Source of the DNA: Candidatus Daviesbacteria bacterium GW2011_GWA1_41_61
GTDB taxonomy: Bacteria > Patescibacteriota > Microgenomatia > Daviesbacterales > UBA10151
Direction of reading: 5' to 3'
Assembly (NCBI GenBank): GCA_000997385.1
Contig: LCBT01000002.1
Span: forward strand, 70,315-119,423
DNA: 49,109 nucleotides
Below the pieces are notes generated by a model. That model was not told where the DNA came from. It did not search any database and worked only from the letters and a program-made list of their open reading frames with translations. Position 1 is the stretch's first letter, and each line of letters begins with the position of its first letter. The translations under genes were made by a program, and so were the position numbers. This document shows, in pieces, positions 9,458 to 33,054 of the stretch.

Positions 9458-9545
9458 GGTGGGGTGCTTGGAGAGGATTATCAGGTCGGTCTTGAAAACC
9501 GATGTGGGTGCAAGCCCACCGTGGGTTCGAATCCCACCCCCACCG
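9458..9545 (+). tRNA. tRNA-Ser(TGA)
   Basis: GGTGGGG...TCGGTCTTGAAAACCGA...GTGGGTTCGAATCCCACCCCCACCG; loop CTTGAAA; non-canonical D-arm. Confidence 0.9.
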
Positions 9546-9575
9546 CAAAGTGAGATTTTGGAAATAAGCTGATTT

Positions 9576-21761: not shown

Positions 21762-22070
21762 ATGAATGCTCCGGGAATCCTCCAACTGCAAAAACTGTTG
21801 CAACAGTTGATTGGCATGATAGTGCCTTTGGCTTTTATAGCTTTAACCGTCATGCTGGTGTGGGGAGGGATTAAATATATTACCTCGGGAGGAGATTCTA
21901 AAGCCCTCTCTTCCGCTAACGCCACTGTTACCTGGGCTCTTTTAGGAATCCTTTTTTTAGTCATTGCCTGGCTGGTTTTAAGATTAATTGAGGCCTTTAC
22001 CGGAGTCCAGGTTACCCAATTTTGCTTAGGTTTTCCCGGAGCAGAGACTTTTTGCGGAAGCACAGAATAG
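21762..22070 (+). CDS. T4SS pilin-like membrane protein 5
   Basis: KYITSGGDSKALSSANATVTWALLGILFLVIAWLVLRLI. Confidence 0.75.
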   Translation: MNAPGILQLQKLLQQLIGMIVPLAFIALTVMLVWGGIKYITSGGDSKALSSANATVTWALLGILFLVIAWLVLRLIEAFTGVQVTQFCLGFPGAETFCGSTE

Positions 22071-25123: not shown

Positions 25124-27121
25124 CTACTTTAGAGAAAATGCTTGTTTAAAGAATGCCTTAATCATTTCCCAGATAGCTCCGACATGATTTAAGCCGCTAG
25201 CACTAACTTTAAACCATTTTATCATATTGTTTAATACAGGAATCTTACTCAAAACACGATTTCTAACAATAACATTATTTTTCAAAATTTCTTCTTGTTC
25301 TTTGTTTATTAAATTACGATCTCGGCTTACACGAAGCCTATTATCAACGGCAAAACTGGATTGATTCTCATAATGAAACACTTTTTTAAGGTCATCCATG
25401 CTAAAAACAGCTAAATGTTCAATTAGATAGGCCATTTGTTCGTGTTGTTCCTCCGCCGGAAGGTAACTAAAGGCTTCTTTAAAATCTTTAAGAGACTGAT
25501 CAAAATTACTGATAGCTTCAGGGTTATACAAAAGTCTAGGCCCCTCCTCATTAAACATCTTTCTGACCTTATCTCCACCTTTAATCCTTAAAGAAGCAGC
25601 AAGCCTAAACCCAAAATCTCCACCCCAGCTCTTTAATTGCTCTTTTACAGACCCCCTCATAGAAAGAGTAATTAAGGGCAATACTCCAACATAAGTAGCT
25701 TTCTTTAAAGGCTCCGTTCCAGGCTCTCCTGGCTTTGATTCTTCAGTTCGCATATATCTTATTGGATTTTGTTGTCTCCCTTTAATTAAGAGTGGAGCCC
25801 TACCTTGTAAGGAGTTTTTAAAATCTATGTCATCCCAACGGTCCTGATAAAGTTGTCTCCAGGCTCTATCCCAAGCCATGCCTATTAAATACGGTTTTTC
25901 TTTGCGTACTTTCTCTAAAACCTTTCCTTGATCTGTGCTTGGGTTATGTACCTGCGGATCAGCCAAATTAATGGTATCCCGCCCATATTTAAGAATAACC
26001 CTGTCTAAAAATATAGGATTTCCAGCTTTGTCTACCAATCCATCTAGCTCTGCAGATTGTCCTGTCAAATTGTAAGCCACTTCACCTAAAGCGATATTAC
26101 GGCTTACCCGATCAACAATCTTTCTGGCAGCGATTTTTTTAGGATCATCATCTGGCAAAGCTAAAATACTGTCTATAAAAATTTTTTCAGCTAGGCTTAA
26201 ACTGGCATCTATTTTATCTCTATCCTCAGGTTTTAACTTATCTATTCCTACCAAAAAAAATTGATCAGCTTTACAAAGCGCCAACAATCTTTCAGGTCTA
26301 AATAAGGCATCCGGTGTCCCAAACTTCTTGGCAAAACGCCTTCCTTCTGGATTATCACCAAAAATACCTCTAAGTAATTCTAATTTCTTTTCGGGGCTAA
26401 GTTGAGCGTCTTTGGTTCTCCAAAATGTGGCGTTATCTAAAGCATCAAGAGATTGATCCATCCCGCCAAGACTCAAAATTATCTCATGATCTTTGCCACC
26501 CATTCCTATGATAGTATCAGCATAAAGATCAACCGCTCCCTCTCCTAAAGCATATCCTAAGTTTTTATAGGTATAACGTGATCTTAACATGTCCCTCAAC
26601 GCCACCTGTAACTCCCCTCTGCCTGCTAACTCAGATGTTATTGCCTGAAGTAATTGGGAACCGACATTTTCATCAAATTTACCCGGTTCCCTCTCTTCAA
26701 CCCGAATTTGTTCTTCTAAAATCTCCCAGGCATTATCATCGCTAACATCTTTAGGGAAAAAATAACGAGGTAACTCTCTTGTCTTCTCAGCTCGTGCCTC
26801 AGCTGCTACTCTAGCGGCTCTTTCTCTCTCAGTTTCTTCTTTTGCTTCTCTGGCTACTCTTACTGCCTCTGCAGCCTGTGCTTTGGCAGCCACAATGTCT
26901 CTTCTCAACTCATCCATCTCTCCAGGATTTCCCCCCCCAGGAGCTGGTCTATCAGGAGTCTTATCACTATCCCCTCCACCAGAAGGGTTAGCGCCTTCGG
27001 GATTTAAAGGGTCTTTGTTTCCGCTATCCTTGCCTCCACCCGAGCCTTCTGTCCCGGTATTTGGAGCCTGGAAAACTTCCGGACTATATTGTGATCCATC
27101 AGTCATAAATTCTTTGGACAT
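25124..27121 (-). CDS. Large hypothetical protein with Gly/Pro-rich N-terminus and coiled coil, convergent to the VirB6-like gene
   Basis: Start MSKEFMTDGSQ preceded by AGGAGG; no recognised domain; ~665 aa. Confidence 0.75.
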   Translation of the reverse strand: MSKEFMTDGSQYSPEVFQAPNTGTEGSGGGKDSGNKDPLNPEGANPSGGGDSDKTPDRPAPGGGNPGEMDELRRDIVAAKAQAAEAVRVAREAKEETERERAARVAAEARAEKTRELPRYFFPKDVSDDNAWEILEEQIRVEEREPGKFDENVGSQLLQAITSELAGRGELQVALRDMLRSRYTYKNLGYALGEGAVDLYADTIIGMGGKDHEIILSLGGMDQSLDALDNATFWRTKDAQLSPEKKLELLRGIFGDNPEGRRFAKKFGTPDALFRPERLLALCKADQFFLVGIDKLKPEDRDKIDASLSLAEKIFIDSILALPDDDPKKIAARKIVDRVSRNIALGEVAYNLTGQSAELDGLVDKAGNPIFLDRVILKYGRDTINLADPQVHNPSTDQGKVLEKVRKEKPYLIGMAWDRAWRQLYQDRWDDIDFKNSLQGRAPLLIKGRQQNPIRYMRTEESKPGEPGTEPLKKATYVGVLPLITLSMRGSVKEQLKSWGGDFGFRLAASLRIKGGDKVRKMFNEEGPRLLYNPEAISNFDQSLKDFKEAFSYLPAEEQHEQMAYLIEHLAVFSMDDLKKVFHYENQSSFAVDNRLRVSRDRNLINKEQEEILKNNVIVRNRVLSKIPVLNNMIKWFKVSASGLNHVGAIWEMIKAFFKQAFSLK
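26931..26938. repeat. Poly-C tract (G8 on coding strand) in the N-terminal linker of the 25124..27121 ORF
   Basis: aggatttccccccccaggagc, coding PGGGNPG on minus strand. Confidence 0.85.
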
Positions 27122-27225
27122 AAACCCTCCTTTCCTAAAAAAGCCCATAATTATAGCACTTTGGGAGAGTTCTGTCAAGATTTAGTGTAAGCTTAAAACA
27201 AGACTAAAGTCAAATTTTTTAATGT

Positions 27226-28494
27226 TTAATTTATAGTAAATTGATGTACGTTGGTTATAAGTGAGTAGTAAGGAATAAAGTTAACTGTTGTCCCGCCAAT
27301 AGAGACCTTCTTCTCTTCTCCTAGATGAATAAAATAGCCATTTTTAGGCGTATATTTAGTTAAAAAGCTCCGGTAAGACCGGGTAATTGACGTCTTTTCA
27401 ATTGATGAATATTTTGCTTCAATAGGAGTGACATCTAAACCCCACACCAGCACAAAATCTACTTCAGCTTGATCACGTGTTCTCCAAAAATGGATTTGGG
27501 TTGGTGTTGACTCTAGTTGAGCTCTTAAAATATTAAAAATCATGTTTTCAAAGAGGTGTCCGCTTAAAGGAGAAGGAATTTGGGGTAAACCCAAAAGCCC
27601 CAACAACCAATTGCGAAGCCCTAGGTCTAGAAAATAATATATTGGAGCTTTGGTTATTTCTTTTCGGGTATTTTTATAATATGGAGTAACTTTTTTGATG
27701 ATAAATGTTTGCTCTAAGTAGGATAAATATATTTTGATTGTTTTCTCATCTAGGCCAAGAGTAGATGAAAGCTCGGTGATACTAACCAGGCTACCAATCT
27801 GGGCTGCCAGGATTTTTAAAAGGTTGGTCAAGGCATCTGGTTTCTCAAGACGTAAAAGGTCATGTATGTCTCTATCTATATAGCTTCTATAAATCTCCTG
27901 CATTTGGGATTGCTTCAAAGAAGCGGTCTGGGCTAAAACTACCCGTGGATATCCCCCAAAGACCAGATATTCAGAAAGTAACTGCTCTGTTTTCCTTTTT
28001 TCCAGAGCAAAAAAATTATCAAGTCTATCCTCATAGTGGTAATCAGTTTTAAAGTTGACAAACTCTTCAAAACTTACTGGATTAATGACAAACAACTGCT
28101 TCCTGCCTGCCATTGACTCAGGAATTTTAGCTTTCAACTCGAGGCTTCCTGATCCGGAAATAATAAATTTGTAAGGCAGGTTCATGTCATAAATTCCTTT
28201 TAAAAAAAGTCCAGCATTACTTTTACGTTGTATTTCATCAATAAACACAAAGGCTTTTTCCTTCCCTACCATAAGTTCAATATAGGAAAGTAAAGTGATT
28301 TGAGAGGTCAACTTGGCCGCATCTTCTTCACTATCTAAGTTCAACCAAATTGTTTTTTCTCCTCTATCCTCCAGTTTTTCTTTGAGTATCCGCATAAGAT
28401 AGGTTTTACCAACCTGCCTTGGGCCAATCAAAAACGTCATTTGATCCGAGAGAAGGTGTTCTTCTAGTTTAGCCAGTATTTTTCTTTTGATCAT
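27226..28494 (-). CDS. AAA_14/DUF4143 family ATPase
   Basis: Walker A FLIGPRQVGKTYLMRIL; Walker B KAFVFIDEIQRKSNAG; C-term ENMIFNILRAQL...FWRTRDQAEVDFVLVWG..PIEAKYS. Confidence 0.92.
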   Translation of the reverse strand: MIKRKILAKLEEHLLSDQMTFLIGPRQVGKTYLMRILKEKLEDRGEKTIWLNLDSEEDAAKLTSQITLLSYIELMVGKEKAFVFIDEIQRKSNAGLFLKGIYDMNLPYKFIISGSGSLELKAKIPESMAGRKQLFVINPVSFEEFVNFKTDYHYEDRLDNFFALEKRKTEQLLSEYLVFGGYPRVVLAQTASLKQSQMQEIYRSYIDRDIHDLLRLEKPDALTNLLKILAAQIGSLVSITELSSTLGLDEKTIKIYLSYLEQTFIIKKVTPYYKNTRKEITKAPIYYFLDLGLRNWLLGLLGLPQIPSPLSGHLFENMIFNILRAQLESTPTQIHFWRTRDQAEVDFVLVWGLDVTPIEAKYSSIEKTSITRSYRSFLTKYTPKNGYFIHLGEEKKVSIGGTTVNFIPYYSLITNVHQFTIN

Positions 28495-28519: not shown

Positions 28520-28846
28520 TTAGGAGTCAAGTACTGAAATAGTGGCAATGGAACAACTACAGGCATAAACTCCACAAAAGTTGGGAAACATCTTTTTACC
28601 GCATTTTGGGCAAGAAGGATAGAATTTTTCTAAAAAGGCATAAAATCGTTGGGTTAAAAAAAGACTATGGTTTAAAAGGCCGGTAGAAAGATCATGAACT
28701 GCCTTATCTTTTTCTAAAGGCCGGACTTCATCCATCTTCCCAAGATCTTCCTCTGTCTCCAAGGGATGCTCTGACTCAGACTCATTCTGACCAGAATGTA
28801 TGGGGGAAGGAAATAATTCAAAGAGTACGTCTTTCATATCCTGCAA
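28520..28846 (-). CDS. Small Cys-rich, Zn-ribbon-like protein under a cobalamin riboswitch
   Basis: TTG start at 28846 with SD GGGGAG 6 nt upstream (ATG alternative at 28837); C-term CPKCGKKMFPNFCGVYACSC. Confidence 0.6.
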   Translation of the reverse strand: MQDMKDVLFELFPSPIHSGQNESESEHPLETEEDLGKMDEVRPLEKDKAVHDLSTGLLNHSLFLTQRFYAFLEKFYPSCPKCGKKMFPNFCGVYACSCSIATISVLDS

Positions 28847-28852
28847 CGGGAT

Positions 28853-28871
28853 CTCCCCGATCTAATCGGGG
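28853..28871 (-). promoter_or_regulatory. Expression-platform hairpin sequestering the SD of the downstream ORF
   Basis: CCCCGAT-TAG-ATCGGGG followed by AG; SD GGGGAG lies in the 3' strand and extension. Confidence 0.65.
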
Positions 28872-29009
28872 TGTGGTCGGTCTCCGGACTTATCTAGTTC
28901 ATCAGTAAACTAAAATCACCGTTGCGGCACAGTCTCCGAATTGCACGGAATTCCCTTTTTGTACCTTACCACATTCATGTAATAAACTGAATGTGGAAGT
29001 ACACCACAC
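28871..29009 (-). ncRNA. Cobalamin (B12) riboswitch aptamer
   Basis: Minus strand GTGTGGT...GGGAATTCCGTGCAATTCGGAGACTGTGCCGCAACGGT...AGTCCGGAGACCGACCACAC matches cobalamin core consensus; perfect 7-bp P1 GTGTGGT/ACCACAC; P2-region hairpin GTACTTCCACATTC/GAATGTGGTAAGGTAC. Confidence 0.9.
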
Positions 29010-29016
29010 GTCTTTA

Positions 29017-29045
29017 AAATTAACAGAAGAATTGGAAATGGTCAA
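29017..29045 (-). promoter_or_regulatory. Sigma-70-type promoter of the riboswitch transcript
   Basis: TTGACC - 17 nt - TAATTT, positioned so transcription would begin at about riboswitch P1. Confidence 0.7.
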
Positions 29046-29197
29046 CCTACTACATGTTGTGTAAAAACTGTCACCCCTGTTTGGTGGGGTGGTATTGTGT
29101 TTGAAACAATAAACATCATAAGGTAGAGGATTGTCCTTTTTTGATCCATTTTGAGGCCCTAGACAGTGCTTTTTTCACGCGATATGGTTTTGGTGGC

Positions 29198-30487
29198 ATG
29201 GAACAACACCCTATACCGCAAAACGTGACTGCTTTTGAATTCCATTTGGTAGGGGATATGACCCTAAAACAGTTTGGGTATTTAGCCGGAGGGCTGATTA
29301 TTGCTTATTTTACCTATGTTTTAATCTTCCCCCTAAGCGCCATTATTGCCAGCCCGATTATTGTTCTTTCTGCTTTAAGCGGAGCAGCTTTTGCCTTTTT
29401 ACCAATCTTAGACCGCCCCTTAGACCATTGGGTAGGAGCCTATTTTAAGGCTGTTTACTCAGCTTCAGGAGGAACCTGGAAAGACCCTTTTAACCCTAAA
29501 AAAAGGGTCGAGTCAAATGATCCTGGCTTTAAAAACAGGCTTAAAAATTACCTGGCCTATTTAACTCCGGCTTCTTTTGCGCCTCTTCAGGTACTGCCTC
29601 CAATCCAACCCACTTCCTTACCCATGCCAACCAGCTTCCCACTTCATCCCCTATTCCAACCTTCTTTACCTACCCCTAGCACACCGGTACCTAAAAAACT
29701 GGATCTTTCTAAAATTACTCCCCCTGCCGTTTCTTACAAACCAGTCCTGACCCAAGTACCCTCACCCTCTTTTCAAACTCCTTTCCCCTCTATCCCACCT
29801 GTCTTGGCCAAACCTCAAAATCCTCAACCCCTACCCCCTCCCCTCTCTTCCCACCTGCCCTCACCCCAAGAGCTCAATAAACTCATTGCTGTAGCCAAAC
29901 AGGCTCAACTGCTGCAAGCCCGGATTGTGGAAATTGAGAGGGAGTTAAGTTGGCTTAAAACCAGTCGGTTCCCACCGGCCTCTGCACCAACTGCCGCTCC
30001 TGTTGACGCGATAAAAATTGAGGCTCAAGAGAAAGCTCCCGCCAATAAATTCCAACAGATGGTAGGTAGCTTGCAAGGCCTAATCAAACAAACCGAGGAG
30101 TTACACCGTGAAAGTGAAGTTATCACTAAACACCTGCCCCACCCCCACAGTCAAAATGTGGTCATAGTTAAGCCTGAGCAACCCCCTACACCTCAACCAA
30201 CACTCACTACCACCCCCAATGTCATCAACGGTATTGTCACTGACAGTACCGGCAACTACTTAGAAGGGGCCATCGTCATCATTCATAACAAAGCTGATTT
30301 GCCAGTCCGGGCCTTAAAAACCAATAAATTAGGTCAATTTGCCGGAGCCACACCCTTATCTGATGGCACTTATAACCTTACCCTGGAAAAGGATAATTTA
30401 GAGTTTGATACCCTACAACTTGCTTTGGAGGGGAAAACCCTCCCCCCGCTTTTAATTCATGCTAAAAAAGGAGTAGTCAATGGCTAG
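29198..30487 (+). CDS. PrgI-family T4SS membrane protein with Pro-rich linker and C-terminal carboxypeptidase-regulatory-like domain
   Basis: MEQHPIPQNVTAFEFHLVGDMTLKQFGYLAGGLIIAYFTYVLIFP; C-term NVINGIVTDSTGNYLEGAIVIIHNKADLPVRALKTNKLGQFAGATPLSDGTYNLTLEKDN. Confidence 0.82.
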   Translation: MEQHPIPQNVTAFEFHLVGDMTLKQFGYLAGGLIIAYFTYVLIFPLSAIIASPIIVLSALSGAAFAFLPILDRPLDHWVGAYFKAVYSASGGTWKDPFNPKKRVESNDPGFKNRLKNYLAYLTPASFAPLQVLPPIQPTSLPMPTSFPLHPLFQPSLPTPSTPVPKKLDLSKITPPAVSYKPVLTQVPSPSFQTPFPSIPPVLAKPQNPQPLPPPLSSHLPSPQELNKLIAVAKQAQLLQARIVEIERELSWLKTSRFPPASAPTAAPVDAIKIEAQEKAPANKFQQMVGSLQGLIKQTEELHRESEVITKHLPHPHSQNVVIVKPEQPPTPQPTLTTTPNVINGIVTDSTGNYLEGAIVIIHNKADLPVRALKTNKLGQFAGATPLSDGTYNLTLEKDNLEFDTLQLALEGKTLPPLLIHAKKGVVNG

Positions 30488-31319
30488 CTCTCAGCAGTTT
30501 ATCCCCCTGGAAGAGATTAGAGATGATTTAGTTTTTTTAAAAAACGGCAGCGTTAGTTTAATCATCTCCACTTCAGCTGTTAATTTCAGCCTGCTTTTTG
30601 AAACTGAGCAGATCTCCATTATCCAATCTTTTGCCGGACTTTTAAATTCTCTCTCCTTTCCCATCCAAATTATTATCCGCTCTAAAAGGCTGGATATAAC
30701 TTCTTATATTGAAAGGTTAAAGATGGCAGCTCAAACCCAAACGAATCCCCTGCTGGCCCAAATGACCCAGCATTATTTTAACTTTGTGACCAGCATTATT
30801 AAAGAAAACAACGTTTTAGATAAACAGTTTTATGTTTGTTTAAATGTGAGTTCGATTGAGCTGGGAGTCTTTCACAAAGGAGGTGATGATTTAAGCAAAA
30901 AAGTTTTAACTATTTTAATCCCCAGGAGGGATCATTTACTGCGCCAATTATCTCAGCTAGGACTTAAAGCCCGGCAGCTGAAAAGTGAAGAATTAATTAA
31001 ATTATTTTATGATATCTACAACCCCTCCAATACTGAAGGTGCTGATACTCCCTACGAAACTCCATTAACTCCCAAAGCTCCCCCTCAACTAGCCGCCATC
31101 TCCCCCCAACCAGCAAATCCAACCGCCCCCTCAAGCAGCGGGCCGGTCCCCTCTACTCCAAGGCCGCCAACTATCCCCTTCCTCCCTTCCCCTAACAACC
31201 GTCCTCCCATGCCGCCTCTTAACCGAAGCCAACCCCAAGCCTCCTCCATCTCTGCCCCAGTTATCCGTTTAACTCCGCCTTTTGTTGTGGAAGAGTTAGC
31301 CGATGACAGCGGACCCTAA
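30480..31319 (+). CDS. VirB4/TraC N-terminal-domain-like protein with Pro-rich tail
   Basis: SSQQFIPLEEIRDDLVFLKNGSVSLIISTSAVNFSLLFETEQISIIQSFAGLLNSLSFPIQIIIRSKRLDITSYIERLK. Confidence 0.75.
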   Translation: MASSQQFIPLEEIRDDLVFLKNGSVSLIISTSAVNFSLLFETEQISIIQSFAGLLNSLSFPIQIIIRSKRLDITSYIERLKMAAQTQTNPLLAQMTQHYFNFVTSIIKENNVLDKQFYVCLNVSSIELGVFHKGGDDLSKKVLTILIPRRDHLLRQLSQLGLKARQLKSEELIKLFYDIYNPSNTEGADTPYETPLTPKAPPQLAAISPQPANPTAPSSSGPVPSTPRPPTIPFLPSPNNRPPMPPLNRSQPQASSISAPVIRLTPPFVVEELADDSGP

Positions 31320-33054
31320 TCAAACCATCCGGTTTAATTTGTCAGATATTTTAGCTCCATATCAGATGGAGATTGATTTTTCGCACCTGCGGTTAGACAG
31401 CAACCTTTTCCGTAGCTTTTTTGTCTCCGGTTACCCCAGGTATGTTGAGCCTGACTGGATGGAACCGTTAATTGATTTTGACAGCTCTTTAAGTATGGCG
31501 ATGTTTATTTATCCCACCAAATCAACCGGTATTTTAGACAACCTCAAAAGAAAGATCGCCGAAATGGAAGCCACCATCGAAACTGATTTAGAGAGGGGAA
31601 GGGTCATTGACCCATCCGTCCAGGTAGCTTTAGATGATGCTCGGGAGCTTCAGGAACAGTTGGCCAAAGGAGCGGAAAGGTTTTTTCAGTACAGTTTATA
31701 TATCACCGTCCCGGCCAAAAATAAAGAAAGCCTGAGTAACACCTCCCAGCTGGTAGAATCAACCTTAGGCAGTATCTCCATTACCGCCAGGCCTACCACC
31801 TTACAAATGTATGAAGGTTTTGTTTCCACCATGCCTTTAGGCCAAGACCCCCTCTATTTAAACCATAATATGGATACCACATCTTTGGCCACCACTTTTC
31901 CTTTTGTTTCCTCCGAGCTGACTGCTTCCGAAGGGATTATTTATGGCATTAATGAGCACAACGATTCTTTAATCATCTTTGACCGATTTAGCCAGGAAAA
32001 CGCTAACTGTGTAGTTTTTGCCACCTCCGGCGCCGGAAAATCATACTTTGTTAAACTAGAAGCCTTGCGTTCCTTAATGTTTGGGACCGAGGTGATTATC
32101 ATTGACCCAGAAAGGGAATATCTTAGCTTAGCCCAAGCGGTGGGAGGGGATTATATTAACTTTTCCACCACCTCTCCGGTCAAGATCAACCCTTTTGACC
32201 TGCCAGAGGTAGCTGATAGAGGGGAGGATGAGCTGGGGAGAAAAATTCTTTCTTTGACCGGATTTTTAAAGCTGGTCTTGGGAGAGCTAAACCCCACTGA
32301 GGCAGCAGTTTTAGACCGGGCCATTAACGCCACTTACCGCCTGAAAGGTATTACCACCTCCACTCCTAAAGAACAGTTAGGAAAAATCCAACCTCCTTTA
32401 ATGGAAGACCTCTACAAAGCGATGATTGGCATGGAAGATCCTATTGCTAACTCTTTGGCTGTCAGGTTGGAGCGGTTTATCAAAGGGTCGCTGGCGGGGA
32501 TCTTTTCCACCCAATCTAATATCCAGATTCAAAACCAACTAACGGTTTTTTCAGTGAGGGATTTGCCCGATCAACTGCGCCCTTTGGCCATGTATTTAAT
32601 CTTAGATTATATCTGGACGAAGATTAGGCACAGCTTAAAAAAAAGGCTGCTGATAGTTGATGAGGCCTGGTACATGATGAGATACCCTGATTCGGCAGCC
32701 TTTTTAATTGAGATGGTCAAACGGGCGAGAAAATATTACCTGGGGGTTACCACCATCAACCAGGATGTAGAGGATTTTTTAGGTAAGGACCAAGGCAAGA
32801 TGATTATCTCCAACTCTTCGATGCAGGTTCTTTTAAAACAGGCTCCTGCCTCAATTGAAAAATTGGGTCAAACCTTCAACCTTTCTCAAGGAGAAAAAAG
32901 GCTGCTGCTCACTGCCGGGGTAGGCAGGGGATTATTTTTTGCCGGCAACAACCATGTGGCTATTCGAATTGTCGCCTCTGAGGAAGAACATAAGTTAATT
33001 ACAACTAATCCTAAAGAGATCATAGAAAAGCAGCAGGAGTCACCAGCACAGTAA
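31303..33054 (+). CDS. VirB4-like T4SS ATPase
   Basis: Walker A FATSGAGKSYFVKLEALRSLMFGTEVIIIDPEREYLSLAQAVGGDYINF; Walker B KRLLIVDEAWYMMRYPDSAAFLIEMVKRARKYYLGVTTINQDVEDFL. Confidence 0.95.
   Translation: MTADPNQTIRFNLSDILAPYQMEIDFSHLRLDSNLFRSFFVSGYPRYVEPDWMEPLIDFDSSLSMAMFIYPTKSTGILDNLKRKIAEMEATIETDLERGRVIDPSVQVALDDARELQEQLAKGAERFFQYSLYITVPAKNKESLSNTSQLVESTLGSISITARPTTLQMYEGFVSTMPLGQDPLYLNHNMDTTSLATTFPFVSSELTASEGIIYGINEHNDSLIIFDRFSQENANCVVFATSGAGKSYFVKLEALRSLMFGTEVIIIDPEREYLSLAQAVGGDYINFSTTSPVKINPFDLPEVADRGEDELGRKILSLTGFLKLVLGELNPTEAAVLDRAINATYRLKGITTSTPKEQLGKIQPPLMEDLYKAMIGMEDPIANSLAVRLERFIKGSLAGIFSTQSNIQIQNQLTVFSVRDLPDQLRPLAMYLILDYIWTKIRHSLKKRLLIVDEAWYMMRYPDSAAFLIEMVKRARKYYLGVTTINQDVEDFLGKDQGKMIISNSSMQVLLKQAPASIEKLGQTFNLSQGEKRLLLTAGVGRGLFFAGNNHVAIRIVASEEEHKLITTNPKEIIEKQQESPAQ

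Follow-up and report, generated by a model that had tools for sequence, protein, structure and literature searches.

What does a cobalamin riboswitch control when the first gene behind it is a short cysteine-rich ORF of no recognised B12 family, set inside a T4SS locus? The question arises from positions 28520-29045 (minus strand) of a 49,109-nucleotide stretch of Candidatus Daviesbacteria bacterium GW2011_GWA1_41_61, which we call the window. Patescibacteria, to which this organism belongs, are reduced and mostly host-dependent bacteria. The answer we favour, with confidence slightly better than even, is that the segment works as an OFF switch that responds to cobalamin and acts mainly on translation, and that the gene behind it, here called X, is made in B12 starvation and serves corrinoid supply or economy. 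The aptamer, a conserved P13 hairpin, the conserved pairing of the switch with X, and B12-gene neighbourhoods in relatives were all found by computation (relatives carry G numbers as genomes and L numbers as loci below).

An earlier reading, made from the sequence alone, had proposed a complete cobalamin riboswitch and a covariance-model check of the minus strand with RF00174. That search gave a match of 57.4 bits over the full model (1-189, cmscan) against a gathering score of 31.5 bits, with E-values of 1e-11 in the window and 9.2e-14 in a local search, which bears out the claim. On its sequence, the aptamer is certainly a member of the RF00174 family. It is the only copy in the 1,055,662-base (1.06-Mb) genome; RF01689 (AdoCbl-II) found no match there, and RF00174 is the best clan member at the locus. 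The B12 box, a closed P1, P3-P6, L5, and the L13/P13 kissing-loop elements can all be recognised (Table 1), the perfect 7-bp P1 as previously described, and L5 is of the CUGUGCCGCAAC type in nearly all relatives. The leader fold is more stable than every one of 200 dinucleotide shuffles (z = -3.9). The ligand is presumably adenosylcobalamin or a related corrinoid.

Table 1. Features of the riboswitch-X locus and its surroundings, in window positions
Feature	Position	Strand	Basis
Gene X, riboswitch-controlled, minimal family member	28520..28837	-	G013 homologue, shared ATG, synonymous bias
C-terminal zinc-ribbon-like motif CPKCGKKMFPNFCGVYACSC (CPKCG...CSC)	28553..28612	-	sequence
P13/L13 hairpin AUCC-CGUUGCA-GGAU	28838..28852	-	shared with relatives
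Linker hairpin CCCCGAT-TAG-ATCGGGG	28855..28871	-	real; not conserved in relatives
Cobalamin riboswitch aptamer (RF00174)	28858..29023	-	cmscan
P1, perfect 7-bp helix	GUGUGGU 29009-29003 with ACCACAC 28877-28871	-	sequence
B12 box	about 28891-28875	-	sequence
L5 region GUGCCGCAAC, L13 partner	28921..28930, UGCCG 28929-28925	-	relatives; PMC10653944
Putative promoter TTGACC (29045-29040)-17 nt-TAATTT (29022-29017)	29017..29045	-	sequence
PrgI-domain T4SS protein, divergent riboswitch neighbour	29141..30487	+	Pfam PF12666, 31 bits
Split VirB4/TraC-type T4SS ATPase genes	30480..33054	+	Pfam TraC_F_IV, P-loop_TraG
AAA_14/DUF4143 ATPase, inserted between X and next conserved gene	27226..28494	-	Pfam
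Large orphan ORF (MSKEFM... start region)	25124..27178	-	homologue after X in G007
T4SS pilin-like protein	21762..22070	+	PF18895, 31.7 bits, cut-off 26.6

The sequence-only reading placed the expression platform in the CCCCGAT hairpin, which was taken to hide a GGGGAG Shine-Dalgarno sequence and to be followed by a TTG start at 28846. The hairpin is indeed present, overlapping P1 at C28871; the spacing from GGGGAG to TTG would be acceptable, and the reading frame stays open from TTG 28846, which is in frame with ATG 28837. However, in most relatives the hairpin is absent or different, swapped for unrelated hairpins or a few bases, while P13, its Shine-Dalgarno sequence and the ATG are kept, and TTG 28846 itself sits in the L13 loop. 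Neither the GGGGAG element nor the TTG start was confirmed, and we regard initiation in this manner as improbable. The CCCCGAT hairpin is more likely a variable linker and the conserved P13/L13 element the platform. The start is probably ATG 28837, supported by the ATG position common to G007 and G013, giving a product of 105 aa (108 aa if counted from the TTG).

In most relatives, UCCCG-N(1-2)-GCAGGA(gcaat)AUG stands directly 5' of the start. Here the Shine-Dalgarno sequence AGGA (28842-28839) lies within the 3' arm of P13 and the ATG comes next, after a single nucleotide, a very short gap that counts against our preferred explanation. A search no more than 130 nt from the aptamer end for CG-N(1-3)-CA closed by a stem of 3 bp or longer succeeded in 44 of the 53 homologous loci, where dinucleotide shuffles would give 1.5, a contrast somewhat flattered by a motif definition made after inspection of the loci. 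The CG-n-GCA of L13 is pairable with the UGCCG of L5, leaving a bulge of 1-2 nt; covariation is uninformative on this pairing because each side is almost invariant. For riboswitches of this class, a kissing loop between L5 and L13 that acts in sequestering the RBS or in termination is established (PMC10653944). The full complementarity of L5 and the P13 loop seen in the MFE fold (GCAACGG/CCGUUGC) is confined to a few genomes and was set aside as a general mechanism. With the Shine-Dalgarno sequence in the 3' arm of a conserved P13, the B12 OFF switch proposed earlier is very likely, and repression likely passes through P13.

The promoter that the earlier reading had pointed out is present as letters, with five of six consensus bases in the -35 box, and only three of six in the -10 box; a consensus promoter scan did not list it, the -10 being too weak. 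A TTGAC box lies upstream of 18 of the 31 aptamers of the organism's own family, against 2.2 expected.

Whether the same switch-ORF pair recurs in relatives was the refutation test that the sequence-only reading had set for itself, and the pairing proved to be conserved. RF00174 was found at E<=0.001 in 53 of 95 relatives (38 over the cut-off), and a phylum-wide draw yielded it in 34 of 153 genomes; no genome of either set had a second copy. Of the 31 own-family loci, 28 have PrgI divergently upstream of the riboswitch, as the window does. The switch-plus-P13 pattern also matches many Candidatus Daviesbacteria MAGs and MAGs of the window's GTDB family; it was not found in viral contigs.

Eight family members have X near PrgI and no reported RF00174. 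RF01689 (AdoCbl-II) occupies the same PrgI-X gap in G006 and G030, where it exceeds the gathering score, and in G010 and G018, where it falls below it; AdoCbl-II-like leader motifs are visible by eye in G014, and in G023 an RF00174 match stays below the threshold at 21 bits, its core and P13 intact. In G016 and G021, X lies at PrgI and no complete aptamer was seen. Rfam detects no riboswitch at the PrgI-adjacent X of G014, G016 or G021, which counts against our preferred explanation. In two further genomes, G011 and G031, X is missing beside PrgI and is found elsewhere, behind an AdoCbl-II-like element. In G006 and G030 (L146, L148), the aptamer type is swapped and the regulated gene unchanged.

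The AdoCbl-II-like leaders of G006, G010, G014, G018 and G030 show P13 and then a terminator hairpin with a T-run; in G006, G018 and G030 this takes the form of P13 (e.g., CUCUUCGAG...) followed by CCCUCGAAGAGGG and the T-run. In these three, the ligand should favour termination because the 5' side of P13 could pair with the 5' side of the terminator, and the AdoCbl-II-like leaders with a terminator would be transcriptional OFF switches. Since P13-Shine-Dalgarno and P13-terminator leaders each predict repression by B12, the ligand would switch off expression in both designs, and OFF upon binding is the direction that we infer for this genome.

The gene behind the switch was described earlier as a Cys-rich protein outside recognised families, and searches of Pfam, NCBIfam and PHROGs with X agree in giving no family match, including none to a recognised B12-related family (synthesis, transport, isozymes). 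It is not the free-standing new small protein that had been supposed, but rather the minimal form of a fast-evolving family whose members are usually 290-500 aa long and consist of a body and a C-terminal zinc ribbon. Minimal forms occur in our genome (105 aa), G007 (92 aa) and G013 (84 aa), and their N-termini are unrelated. The G013 protein, encoded at the same locus position, matches X at 51% over 39 aa (E=6e-9), in the Cys region only; 16 of the 28 base differences in the Cys motif fall at third codon positions and, because the changes are mostly of this kind, X would be a translated gene. Of the 59 X proteins, 50 carry a C-terminal Cys cluster, defined as one or more CxxC and three or more Cys in the last 75 residues, compared with 23 of 443 neighbouring ORFs.

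A single blastp cluster takes in 36 of the 59 X proteins. Two body types, one of about 300 aa (type A) and one of about 430-500 aa (type B), prove related in an hhalign profile comparison (E=1.2e-4). The protein of G043 (L093) joins a type B body to a tail recognised by the type A profile (234-307, E=7e-9; compare G035, L111), and by these matches X bodies and C-terminal ribbons evidently recombine, the ribbon being exchangeable between bodies that look unrelated. The 105-aa X of the window consists of a short lead and the ribbon and has no conserved central body of type A or B: the A1 profile found no match in our genome, and blastp did not join X to the large family. What assigns it to the family is not its body but its position, its riboswitch and its Cys motif: it comes straight after a cobalamin riboswitch, lies beside PrgI and has the C-terminal Cys cluster.

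The AlphaFold2 model of type A (pLDDT 72) gave no fold in Foldseek searches of the PDB and viral models (best E 0.12), and the type B model (pLDDT 58) was too poor for a fold search. The A1 profile found no match in viral contigs, nor did X in plasmids and phages. To judge from these absent fold and family matches, X appears to be a family undescribed to date. HypA, matched weakly among solved structures by the type A/B profiles (E=0.008) over the Cys region, was rejected as a relative, and a match of our ORF in G052 (E=9e-4) lies away from the riboswitch of that genome and was treated as chance.

That the locus belongs to a T4SS, as the sequence-only reading had said, is upheld by the pilin, PrgI and VirB4/TraC genes of the window, which also holds large membrane-like ORFs. 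X lies within this cluster in an inverted island that it shares with the large orphan ORF. Part of the family has this ORF as the conserved gene that follows X, and genes of 570-1760 aa take a similar position elsewhere. Between X and the next large gene, relatives have AAA_14 ATPases, toxin-antitoxin-like pairs or nothing (slot at L042, L046, L052 and L039), and because the content of this slot varies, the AAA_14/DUF4143 gene of the window appears to be an insertion; its proposed place in a B12 regulon is therefore not supported. The toxin-antitoxin-like pairs look by eye like an antitoxin and a PIN-like partner. Elsewhere in the window, at 9458-9546, Rfam reports tRNA-Sec (53.1 bits, gathering 47), which ARAGORN reads as tRNA-Ser(UGA), and it is probably no selenocysteine tRNA.

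Gene neighbourhoods in relatives give evidence for a link to B12 beyond the switch itself. In eleven class members of other families, the switch and its next gene lie just downstream of nrdJ, frequently in the order nrdR-nrdJ-adenosyltransferase-switch-X. In G083, where Pfam identifies ATP-cone/Zn_ribbon_NrdR and Cob_adeno_trans (183 bits), DUF4430 and DUF6580 genes come behind X, and in G061, G113, G141, G186, G195 and G213 the switch stands directly before DUF4430 genes, several of them followed by DUF6580. DUF4430 is found at the transcobalamin C-terminus (PMC4350170), and in Lacticaseibacillus it adjoins a B12-dependent RNR gene; the same source also names a "putative cobalamin ECF transporter" lipoprotein there (PMC9963975). 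Both G031 and G033 have nrdJ and an AdoCbl-II element ahead of X, and in G011, a member of the own family, the switch is followed by cobQ (TIGR00313, 449.6 bits against a cut-off of 309.9), then by a 269-aa gene and finally by X. This cobyric acid synthase gene, located behind an AdoCbl-II-like element at about 154732-158300 of G011:C2 (L156/L174) with DUF4430/DUF6580 nearby, is an unexpected corrinoid gene for Patescibacteria. These bacteria are not known to synthesise B12.

The riboswitch occurs in 51 of 78 genomes with NrdJ and in 2 of 17 without it (Fisher p=7e-5, not phylogeny-corrected). NrdJ is present in our genome (653.8 bits), and a profile search found no Cob_adeno_trans (PF01923), DUF4430 or DUF6580 there at the thresholds used. 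Riboswitch and minimal X are both present in G007 (L038), which gives no NrdJ_Z match at 93% completeness; another B12 use, an assembly gap or a loss may lie behind this, and switch and X without NrdJ are a point against our explanation.

In the mechanism that we propose, adenosylcobalamin or a related corrinoid would bind the aptamer, whose L5 would kiss L13 and so stabilise P13. The stabilised hairpin would bury AGGA directly before the ATG and leave X untranslated. When B12 is scarce, X would be made and might aid corrinoid supply or economy through capture, import or handling of B12. The beneficiary would be a cell that has an AdoCbl-dependent RNR but none of the tested adenosyltransferase or transporter families. 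Taken by itself, this role of X in B12 supply or economy has in our view an about even chance. Several observations count against our explanation: X matches no known family, solved structure or fold, no corrinoid-binding motif was found in it, its link to the large family is not borne out by blastp, and its fixed neighbour in the own family is a T4SS and not a B12 gene.

The main rival starts from that neighbour. X might be a part or cargo of the adjacent T4SS, with low B12 serving only as a cue of host loss or starvation upon which X changes what the T4SS does in attachment, in the transfer of DNA or effectors, or in DNA uptake. The divergent PrgI of the 28 loci fits this, as do the pilin, VirB4 and PrgI of the window, the coupling-protein-like ATPase that other families have downstream of X, and the swapping of C-terminal modules between X bodies, a pattern also of secreted proteins; a patescibacterial T4SS is, moreover, essential in S. 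epibionticum (PMC11665869). Yet X lies on the strand opposite PrgI-VirB4 and has no secretion-related domain, and in other families, as in G011, G031 and G033, it accompanies nrdJ or cobQ away from the T4SS cluster. We consider this role unlikely, and somewhat less probable still a bolder version, in which B12 starvation directly gates the function of the patescibacterial T4SS locus through X to obtain corrinoids, or DNA precursors irreducible without AdoCbl, from a neighbour or host cell.

The small size of X (84-105 aa in our genome, G007 and G013) and the unrelated N-termini could also mean decay to a leader-like ORF, the switch being vestigial or governing the ATPase and the large orphan ORF through translational coupling or mRNA stability. 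The intact aptamer and P13, the conserved Cys motif with its third-position bias and the non-conserved insertion of the AAA_14 gene make this a poor prospect. Least probable of all is a stand-alone, NrdJb-like redox or assembly helper for class II RNR made when AdoCbl is short: the C-terminal Cys cluster often ends in Cys, nrdJ adjoins X in other families and NrdJa+b enzymes provide the precedent of a split CRD gene (PMC5704485), but our NrdJ already has a six-cysteine tail (CPDCG...CKKCHSCGYSMC), X bodies are dissimilar to NrdJ, and Cys spacing in X varies widely, differs by eye from the CRD array CxxC-x10-CxxC-x2-C-x4-C and gives no CRD family match.

The corrinoid-responsive switch that we favour shares its aptamer fold, B12 box, L5-L13 kissing loop and P13-based OFF platform with class I riboswitches of the btuB/metE type (RF00174; PMC10653944), and differs from these in its target, an orphan zinc-ribbon family, and in occurring as one copy per genome in Patescibacteria. 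AdoCbl-II elements (RF01689) fill the same intergenic place in G006 and G030, whereas our locus is of the RF00174 type. The ppe2 B12 riboswitch of Mycobacterium tuberculosis is likewise a translational OFF switch with a target of uncertain function (PMC11260477), but it heads a PPE2-cobQU operon, controls an unrelated protein and uses a uORF mechanism. The putative cobalamin uptake genes DUF4430/DUF6580 stand at this position behind the riboswitch in other parts of the phylum and once, in G083, share a gene string with X; they are absent from our genome, and X has no sequence similarity to them. With the NrdJ cysteine-rich domain and NrdJb, X has in common the C-terminal Cys cluster and, in relatives, the B12-RNR neighbourhood, but no detectable homology, and our NrdJ has its own CRD.

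In the literature searched, whose coverage left out most subscription papers, no published account of the B12 switch-X pairing was found. No more than one switch per genome, two aptamer types and two output mechanisms attached to the same orphan family in one lineage mark X as having a B12-related function. The pairing offers a direct handle for testing X and a hint at B12 management in Patescibacteria. The pattern from B12 box to P13 (window 28839-28884) also occurs in Actinobacteria, for example Propionibacterium and Rhodococcus (L084-L109), and in others. At other patescibacterial loci (L158, L165 and more), a single cobalamin riboswitch precedes genes of 600-850 aa, often with another large gene behind them.
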